From assembly GCA_021297895.1 (NCBI GenBank), contig JAJTHN010000052.1, positions 1 to 64,000 of the forward strand: a stretch of 64,000 bases of DNA, given 5' to 3'. This stretch comes from Phycisphaeraceae bacterium. GTDB taxonomy: Bacteria; Planctomycetota; Phycisphaerae; Phycisphaerales; UBA1924. Positions within the stretch are counted from its first letter, which is position 1. Each line of letters begins with the position of its first letter. Both the position numbers and the translations under genes were made by a program. Below are positions 43,573 to 46,199 of the stretch, one piece after another. Under the pieces are notes generated by a model. That model was given only the letters and a program-made list of their open reading frames with translations, ran no database searches and was not told where the DNA came from.

Positions 43573-44808
43573 TCACCAATCCGCGCTCTTGCCCATCGCG
43601 TTGGTCGGCAGCGCGTCCCCGATCGTCCACGCCCGCGGCCGTTCGTGCGATGAGAGCATCGTTGCCGCGTACTCATCGATCGCCGAGCGCAGCGACTCGC
43701 GATCCGTCACCTCGTCGCTCGGCACCACGAACGCCTTGAGCCGGTCTCCCTCCTCCGCCCGCATCAGCCGCACCCGCACCTCGCGCACGCGCTGATGCTG
43801 CCGCAGGATCTCCTCCACGCGTGATGGAAAGACGTTGATCCCCGCGACTTTCACCGCCCGATCCCGCCGCGACAGCACGCGCAGCGCGCGCTCCCCTTCC
43901 CACGAGACGTGGTCCATCAGTTCCGTCGGCGCCTCACGCCGCCCATCGGCCCGAACGCGCACGATCGCATCATCGCCCGCGCGCTCCCAGAACGGGTGCA
44001 GCGTGTACGCATCCCCCGGCGCGAGCCGCACGCCGATACCGCCGGTCTCCGTCGAGCCATAAACCTCCATGATCGAGCACAGCCCCGATGCGAGAAGCCC
44101 CGCGTGCAGAGCCGGCTTGAGCGGCGATGTCGATGACACCCCCGCGCACCCGGGGAACGTGCGCACGCTCGTGAGCAGGTACTCCCACATCGCCGGGATC
44201 GAAACGATCAGGTCCGTCGCCCGCAGTTCGCGCGACAGCGCCCCCGCGCCCATCTGCCGCGCATCGAGCACACCGACCCCCAGCTTCGCCGGCAGCAGCA
44301 CCGTGAAGATGTATCCGAACAAGTGGTTCGCCGGCACGAGCGACACCACGCGCATCCGCCCCGCGAACCGGCGCGCCAGTTCGTCGGCCTCCTGATCCAG
44401 CAGTTCCGCCTCGTGCGTCACGACCTTCGGCGTGCCCGTGCTCCCGCTGGTCAGAAACGACACGCGATCGTCATACACCTCAAGCCCGCGCAGCACGATG
44501 TCCGTCCACGCCCCGATCGTCGCCGCGCCGAGCAGGTGATCCTCGATCCCGGACTCGTGCAGATGGAAGCACTCGTTGACGCGCCCCGCCGCGGCCAGCA
44601 GATCGATCGAGTCCAGATCAAGCCCGGGTGCCGCCGGCGCACCATCCGCACCGGCCGCGTGCCCGCGTCCCAGCAGCATGTTCTCGGTCCACCTCGACGG
44701 GTGGGAGAGACTCAAGGTGCCCTCGCGCACCCTGCTCCGCACCGCAGAATCGATGACATCGCACACCAGGCGGAGCGTGAGCGTTCGATCGTGCCTGGTC
44801 TTGAGCAT
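43573..44808 (-). CDS. pcl: AMP-forming ligase, probable p-coumaroyl ligase for PYP chromophore
   Basis: A 411-residue ANL-superfamily enzyme. The AMP-binding P-loop is LTSGSTGTPK (residues 119-128), the A5 motif EVYGSTETGG, the hinge/A8 region RRDRAVKVAGINVFPSRVEE, and the catalytic A10 Lys407 in LPTNAMGKSAD near the end. Only about 115 residues precede the P-loop, fewer than in normal CoA ligases. They contain LDLDSIDLL (Ser67), like the phosphopantetheine site of acyl carrier proteins, followed by helix-like HLLGAATIGAWTDIVL. Known PYP systems need a p-coumarate-activating ligase, often encoded beside pyp; this gene lies 180 bases downstream of pyp on the same strand. Substrate is inferred from context. 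GGAGG precedes the ATG. Confidence 0.75.
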   Translation of the reverse strand: MLKTRHDRTLTLRLVCDVIDSAVRSRVREGTLSLSHPSRWTENMLLGRGHAAGADGAPAAPGLDLDSIDLLAAAGRVNECFHLHESGIEDHLLGAATIGAWTDIVLRGLEVYDDRVSFLTSGSTGTPKVVTHEAELLDQEADELARRFAGRMRVVSLVPANHLFGYIFTVLLPAKLGVGVLDARQMGAGALSRELRATDLIVSIPAMWEYLLTSVRTFPGCAGVSSTSPLKPALHAGLLASGLCSIMEVYGSTETGGIGVRLAPGDAYTLHPFWERAGDDAIVRVRADGRREAPTELMDHVSWEGERALRVLSRRDRAVKVAGINVFPSRVEEILRQHQRVREVRVRLMRAEEGDRLKAFVVPSDEVTDRESLRSAIDEYAATMLSSHERPRAWTIGDALPTNAMGKSADW

Positions 44809-44863
44809 CGCGCGTGGCCTCCGGACGGGCGCACTGCGCCCTTTCCCTTATCGGCCAAATGAA

Positions 44864-44895
44864 GGCGGACCTTGGGCACGTACCCAAGGTCCGCC
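44864..44895 (-). terminator. Perfect hairpin between pyp and the ligase gene
   Basis: Arms GGCGGACCTTGGG and CCCAAGGTCCGCC, 13 bp perfect, with a CACGTA loop. On the minus strand it is followed by TTCATTT. It starts 93 bases past the pyp stop and ends 55 bases before the ligase ATG. It could terminate pyp mRNA partially, letting a fraction read into the ligase gene, or stabilise the pyp transcript end. Confidence 0.7.
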
Positions 44896-44988
44896 GTTCG
44901 GTCCTCGTTCACCTCGCGTGCGGGTGCCTACAGACGAGGCCTCGTCGGCACGGAGTGCGATCGGACAGTCAAGACTCGCTGATGCGGA

Positions 44989-45369
44989 TCACATGCGCTT
45001 GATGAAGATCCAGACCGTGTTGTCCGTCAGCGACTTCTTCATGAGGATCTTGACGCTGGTGGGCGTCATCTTGTAGTTGAACACGTACTCGAACATCACG
45101 TTGAGATCGTTCTTCTTCACGCCCTCCTGGAAGCGGCCGAAGAACGTCGGGCTGTTGGTGCAGGGCGCGACTTCCTTGAAGAAGTTCTTGCCGAGAACCG
45201 CCTTGGGGTCGCGACCGGTGATCTGCCCCTCCATCGCGTTGTACTTGAGTATCTTGCCCGTCGGGTCGAGCTGCACCGCGCCGAAGGCCAGTTTGTCCAG
45301 ATCCTGATTGGCCAGCGCCGCGTCGAGGTCGTTGGTGCCGAACTTGATCGGCTGCTGAAGTGTCGCCAT
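44989..45369 (-). CDS. pyp: Photoactive yellow protein (PYP), blue-light receptor
   Basis: A 126-residue PAS-fold photoreceptor, almost the same length as Halorhodospira PYP (125). The residues that bind and tune the p-coumaroyl chromophore are all present: Tyr43 (PYP Tyr42), Glu47 (Glu46), Thr51 (Thr50), Arg53 (Arg52) and Cys70 (Cys69, thioester link) in VAPCT. Shared stretches include [32 protein letters not shown] and MTPTSVK. It should photocycle under blue light and signal to an unknown partner. A strong ribosome binding site (AGGAGGATGAC-ATG) suggests high expression. It lies between an unknown small gene upstream and the ligase gene downstream. Confidence 0.96.
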
Positions 45370-45501
45370 GTCATCCTCCTGAGTGCCGCGTGCGCCCGCG
45401 CGGGCCGCCGCGAATGGTCCCTTGTTCGATCGTGCGATGCGTCTGTGCGTTCACACGCGTCGCGTTGCGCATTCGCGCGCGCTCCGCGCCCGCGCCGTGA
45501 T

Positions 45502-45915
45502 TCACTGCTGATTGCCCGAAACGTGCCGGAAGGACTCGTGAAGCCGCGTCAGCGTCGTCGTGGGGATCGCCACCGCGCGACCGCTGGGCTTCTTCCCGTT
45601 GCCGATGCCCAGCGAGTTGAAGAACGTGAACAGCTCCGCCTCCAGCGTCAGATACCGCTGATGCAGCGCGTGATACTCCTCAGCGCCCACCGCCAGCGTC
45701 TGCGGCGTGTAGTCCAGATTCCCGTCGAGCATCTCGCGGGCGCGGTCGGCCAGGCGATGAACGTTGTTCAACGCCTCCAGGGCCTGCTGCTCCGCCGTGA
45801 GAAAGTCGAAGTTCTTCGCCAGGCTCGCGAACCGCTCGTCGTGCTCCCGCTCAAGGTTCACGAACGCGTCGATCGCGTTCCCGCCCGTCGTGCCGCCGTT
45901 GCTCTGCTGCCTCAC
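45502..45915 (-). CDS. Small helical protein of unknown function upstream of pyp
   Basis: A 137-residue protein starting at GTG 45915 (VRQQSNGGTTGG), preceded by AAGGAGAGGCAC; an ATG at 45936 is the alternative. It is mostly helical and acidic (IDAFVNLEREHDERFASLAK, ALEALNNVHRLADRAREMLD, EYHALHQRYLTLEAELFTFF) with short flexible ends and no membrane segment. Not a family I recognise. It ends 132 bases before pyp on the same strand. It may be a PYP partner or simply a neighbour; only the gene order supports the former. Confidence 0.68.
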   Translation of the reverse strand: MRQQSNGGTTGGNAIDAFVNLEREHDERFASLAKNFDFLTAEQQALEALNNVHRLADRAREMLDGNLDYTPQTLAVGAEEYHALHQRYLTLEAELFTFFNSLGIGNGKKPSGRAVAIPTTTLTRLHESFRHVSGNQQ

Positions 45916-46199
45916 GTGCCTCTCCTTGCGATTCATGGTCGTTCGACTCGCTCGCGCCGGCAGACTCAGCCGTCGCGCTGCCGAACTCCGTGCTCCGTGA
46001 GTCCATCGGCACCCGGCCGCGCACACACCCGCAACCATCCGCAGCTCCACCCCCGCAGGGTGTTAATCTGCGCCGTCTGCCACCACCAGACAAACCCGCG
46101 CAATCACGCACGTCCAAGAACACCCGTCCCAACGCCCCGCCGCGCCCCGCATCGCCAGCCCCAGCCCCGGCCACGCATCGCGCGTCTACCCTCCGCTCC

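Follow-up and report, generated by a model that had tools for sequence, protein, structure and literature searches.

A photoactive yellow protein module in a planctomycete, with a candidate partner protein and a second PYP system

The window analysed in this study, a stretch of 64,000 nucleotides from contig JAJTHN010000052.1 of a Phycisphaeraceae bacterium (assembly GCA_021297895.1), carries a cassette of three co-directional genes in the order PA, pyp and ligase (Table 1). An earlier note on this DNA had proposed a photoactive yellow protein (PYP), an AMP-forming ligase and a small upstream protein at this locus, and all three genes are present at the positions listed, on the minus strand. 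The same genome (G000) encodes a second PYP on contig C34, PYP2, and the two small neighbours of this protein, PB and PC, together with a CheA paralogue are also listed.

Table 1. Features of the PYP1 cassette in the window and of the PYP2 system on contig C34.
Feature	Position	Strand	Description and basis
PA	45502..45936	minus	144 aa from ATG; small predicted-helical protein without recognised family, candidate PYP1 partner
PYP1	44989..45369	minus	126 aa; canonical photoactive yellow protein; TIGR02373, match to solved PYPs, alignment, tree
pCL	43573..44808	minus	411 aa; 4-coumarate:CoA-ligase-like AMP-forming enzyme; TIGR02372, AMP-binding, AMP-binding_C, motifs
Hairpin	44864..44895	minus	14-pair terminator-like hairpin in the pyp/ligase spacer; terminator scan and folding energy
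PYP2	contig C34, L005:8160-8558	minus	second PYP of the window's genome; Val42/Gln46, intact Cys69; adjoins PB and PC
PB	contig C34, L005:8585-8929		small protein next to PYP2
PC	contig C34, L005:9025-9501		helical protein beside PB
CheA paralogue	L005:9983-13630	plus	Hpt, N-box asparagine and G2 box missing; equivalents L033, L034, L138

The spacers of the window cassette measure 132 nt between PA and pyp and 180 nt between pyp and the ligase, and the hairpin within the latter has a folding energy of −35.9 kcal/mol (z −4.88). An equivalent hairpin, followed by U4, is found in the same pyp/ligase spacer of genome G495 (L031). Given the hairpin and the length of the two spacers, a single tight operon is not established; the hairpin may raise the level of PYP above that of its enzyme, or it may mark a transcript end.

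PYP1 scored 173.2 bits (2e-51) on TIGR02373, above the curated equivalog cut-off of 143.05, and matched solved PYPs with a phmmer E-value of 1.2e-47, which bears out its identification as a genuine PYP. In the alignment it is 60% identical to the PYP of Halorhodospira halophila, and the five chromophore-pocket residues that the note had picked out are all confirmed, with Tyr43, Glu47, Thr51, Arg53 and Cys70 corresponding to Tyr42, Glu46, Thr50, Arg52 and Cys69 of the Halorhodospira protein. On these grounds PYP1 is predicted to be a blue-light sensor. In the PYP1 of genome G627 (L030:4979-5365), Asp replaces Glu46 and Val replaces Thr50.

The phylogeny that the note had suggested as a check was run. 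The three planctomycete PYP1 sequences cluster together (96/74), separately from the PYP2 sequences, and are nested within a proteobacterial and spirochaete PYP clade (100/100), a position expected for horizontal acquisition; transfer has also been favoured for PYPs found outside the proposed source phylum (PMC9664959). The closest relatives of PYP1 outside the family belong to the Gammaproteobacteria, with at most 66% identity, as they would if the protein and its cassette were a proteobacterial binning artefact. We consider such an artefact highly improbable, since the cassette is internal to a 65-kb contig in a bin that is 97% complete and 0.2% contaminated, the codon pattern of PYP1 matches that of the neighbouring genes, and PA and PYP1 are found together in two more genomes of the same family.

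The gene next to pyp encodes the AMP-forming ligase that the note had described. Its top family by a wide margin is TIGR02372 (4-coumarate:CoA ligase), on which it scored 309.8 bits, just below the cut-off of 334.7, and it is the sole match to this family in its genome (E <= 1e-15). The protein has AMP-binding and AMP-binding_C domains, with the adenylation motifs TSGSTGTPK at position 120 and YGSTETGG at position 250 and a C-terminal lysine in the MGK motif at position 405. The branches of the ligase tree are long, and it speaks neither for nor against a joint transfer with pyp. The pairing itself is not the new unit that had been proposed. A ligase adjoins pyp in 76 of the 80 PYP1-like loci (named genomes, our own count), and the pair is thus the normal PYP cassette; in G627, neither a ligase near PYP1 nor any TIGR02372 match was found. 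The range assumed in the note, mainly Proteobacteria and Salinibacter, is likewise outdated, as PYPs occur in many phyla, and those of Planctomycetota were reported in 2025 in a set of 984 homologues of which the PVC group made up 1% (PMC12826048). Planctomycete PYPs and pyp-ligase pairs are therefore already known, and it is the PYP1-linked PA that is new.

PA found no match in Pfam, PHROG or the PDB sequences, and NCBIfam returned one insignificant hit. Its AlphaFold model shows four helices with a pLDDT of 51, too poor for a fold search, and comparison with PB and PC revealed no homology. With the proteins whose genes immediately precede PYP1 in G627 and G495, PA shares 39-41% identity and a conserved core. 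The neighbourhood survey proposed for this gene was carried out with a profile of the three copies, and of the 150 family genomes drawn, PA was detected in three, the same three that carry PYP1, always directly upstream and in the same direction; the PA and PB search models were built from the same loci, the independent evidence being the absence elsewhere, and all genomes compared are drafts. PA was absent from the 147 remaining family genomes searched and was not found beside any of the 79 other PYP1-like loci. Since G495 and G627 belong to one genus, the combination of PYP1 and PA represents about two lineages. A gene for a methyl-accepting chemotaxis protein (MCP) with a PilZ domain (L030:8229-10181) is located about 2.2 kb upstream of PA in G627.

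The suggestion that the upstream protein could be a partner of PYP is plausible in view of this linkage in three out of three carriers. Alternatively, PYP1 and the ligase could be a PYP cassette of the ordinary, transferred kind, with PA an unrelated neighbour carried along, in keeping with the standard pairing of pyp and ligase at other loci, with the 132 nt that separate PA from pyp and with its lack of an annotated domain. We regard this as unlikely, because PA has been retained next to PYP1 in two genera, at 39-41% identity, despite differing flanking genes, and because it is missing from the other family genomes searched and from PYP1-like loci outside the family. Neighbourhood and co-occurrence, in about two lineages, support the assignment of PA as a candidate PYP1-specific partner.

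PYP2 scored 102 bits (2.4e-29) on TIGR02373, under the cut-off; this profile covers about 20% of PYPs, and the family is defined by Cys69 (PMC9664959), which is present. The PYP2 sequences form a clade of their own (100/100) with long branches, and show no variation in Cys69 or in the APCTN motif. Val42, Gln46 and Cys69 occur together in G000, G495, G627 and the first copy of G696, whereas Tyr42 is combined with Gln46 in G635 and the second copy of G696, and with Glu46 in G387, G288 and G259. In a survey of 789 homologues, Tyr42 and Glu46 were never both substituted in a Cys69-bearing PYP (PMC9664959), and PYP2 of contig C34 fails the published rule that at least one of the two is kept with Cys69. 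Position 42 is Tyr in 90.8% and Phe in 8.9% of PYPs (PMC12826048), and Val42 would thus belong to the remaining 0.3%.

The replacement of both hydrogen-bond partners of the phenolate, Tyr42 and Glu46, by Val and Gln in four PYP2 proteins could mean that PYP2 has lost chromophore binding and now serves as a PAS subunit, not as a photoreceptor, in a complex with PB, PC and the CheA paralogue. The Y42F/E46Q double mutant of the Salinibacter protein, which left the chromophore protonated (PMC9664959), points in the same direction. This reading seems to us possible but rather less than even in its chances, as Cys69 and the APCTN motif remain invariant and a ligase, a lyase or both are kept at the PYP2 locus itself in G635, G495, G696 and probably G627. 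We favour PYP2 as a second sensor.

Four family genomes share the order PC-PB-PYP2, and G696 shows the arrangement PB-PYP2a-PC-PB'-PYP2b-ligase. The tandem PB-PYP2 pairs of this genome (L137:5188-7395) comprise one Val42/Gln46 and one Tyr42/Gln46 protein. In G627 and G635 the stop of PB and the start of PYP2 overlap by 4 nt, and in G288, a distant planctomycete of a different family, PB and PYP are fused in one open frame. An apparent PB-PYP fusion in G259 was rejected and not counted, because a stop separates the two neighbouring frames. Across 392 genomes of the phylum, PB was found in four, exactly those with a PYP2-type protein, and it is the upstream neighbour of PYP2 in all of them; PC turned up in two genomes of the same draw, G000 and G288. 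Neighbourhood, co-occurrence and the one fusion together suggest that PB contacts PYP2. The model of PC consists of six helices (pLDDT 91). Foldseek returned zero matches for it at E <= 0.001, and the best VIA-align Z scores were 9.6 for a TRiC chain and 8.4-8.9 for HscB and a designed bundle, values that are common for helical bundles.

The CheA paralogue is divergent to PC in G000, G495 and G627, and in G635 it is located some 20 kb away from PYP2. In these four genomes it lacks the Hpt motif, has lost the N-box asparagine, has a degenerate G1 box and has its G2 box deleted; in Pfam neither HATPase_c nor Hpt was matched, and the dimerisation domain (PF02895) and the CheW-like domain (PF01584) are kept. 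Other CheA homologues are present elsewhere in G000 and G495. In G288 a CheA-like gene also lies near PC, and its motifs are intact. The PYP2-linked paralogue could act as a scaffold that ties PYP2 to chemosensory arrays. PYP is similarly tied to chemosensory machinery in Ppr of Rhodocista (Rhodospirillum) centenum, which binds CheW and links PYP to CheW/CheA (PMC2993699), and in PYP-MCP fusions (PMC12826048).

A gene resembling tyrosine ammonia-lyase (TAL) lies 3' of the CheA paralogue on contig C34. Its product contains GASGD, in which ASG forms the MIO cofactor, and LISHLGAG with the selectivity motif HL, where histidase-like relatives read SH; HL is also found in many PYP-linked lyases. 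Its best curated models are HutH-type, all below cut-off, and it passes the cut-off of no curated TAL model. The TAL-like lyase is present in all five PYP-bearing family genomes at 58-66% identity, whereas four PYP-less members, drawn from two of these genera, had lyase homologues of 35-37% or none. Chromophore-supply genes also stand at PYP2 loci: G635 has the row PC-PB-PYP2-ligase-TAL, and in G627 ligase-like and TAL frames are found at a contig end.

G495 and G696, which represent two genera, carry next to PYP2 a HemN-like radical SAM gene along with an HpaB-type monooxygenase (L034:3252-6250 and L137:1851-5203). HpaBC of E. coli converts p-coumarate to caffeate (PMC3379962), which together with this neighbourhood leads to the hypothesis of a caffeoyl chromophore. 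Here TAL would supply p-coumarate, HpaB would convert it to caffeate and the ligase of the PYP2 system would activate the product, the Val42/Gln46 pocket would accept the catechol, and the signal would pass via PB and PC to the CheA paralogue devoid of catalytic motifs. We put this forward tentatively, as a doubtful though possible scheme whose HpaB component is drawn from the G495 and G696 loci only.

The analysis establishes which genes are present, their key residues and families, and how they are linked and co-occur, and from this we infer chromophore binding, a photocycle, partner contacts and output. We consider it likely that PYP1 is a transferred blue-light sensor whose signal is read by a partner, PA being the most probable candidate, and that PYP2 is a second sensor working with PB, PC and the CheA paralogue. 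In this scheme the contig C34 lyase would deaminate tyrosine to p-coumarate, which the ligase of the cassette would activate and which would be attached to Cys70 of the horizontally acquired PYP1. Blue light would isomerise the chromophore and Glu47 would protonate it; the signalling state, partly unfolded, would be sensed by the partner. The other sensor of this genome would consist of PYP2, PB, PC and the CheA paralogue, the last of which probably couples light to the chemosensory machinery.

The PYP1 system resembles the pyp-pCL-TAL operon of H. halophila in the key residues of PYP, in the sequence identity given above, in the adjacent ligase and in the presence of a TAL-like lyase in the genome. 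Unlike that operon, it has its lyase on another contig, a hairpin between pyp and the ligase, and PA as an extra upstream gene. In Rhodobacter capsulatus and Loktanella, PYP is found next to gas-vesicle genes (PMC3646047), and in G635 and G696 gas-vesicle genes likewise adjoin the TAL-like gene that belongs to the PYP2 system, although the PYP clade, the phylum and the small partner genes differ. The gas-vesicle genes concerned (L032:1128-5134 and L162:1217-13648) encode GvpF/L at both loci and also GvpK, GvpG and GvpA-type proteins at L162. No gas-vesicle genes were seen near PYP1 or PYP2 in the window's genome.

PYP is among the best-studied photoreceptors. Few of its signalling partners are known, a gap that has been called important (PMC12826048). 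The PYP module described here is real, and it is set apart from known cassettes by PA and, to a greater degree, by the PYP2 system. PA and PB are small proteins without a recognised family whose occurrence was limited to genomes with PYP, PB also as a natural fusion, and both are amenable to pull-down; together with the PYP2 system they bring the missing partners in PYP signalling within reach of a test. With Val42 and Gln46 combined, PYP2 contradicts the published finding that these substitutions do not co-occur in a Cys69-bearing PYP and, if PYP2 is photoactive, the rules of chromophore-pocket tuning, and perhaps the identity of the chromophore itself, would need revision.
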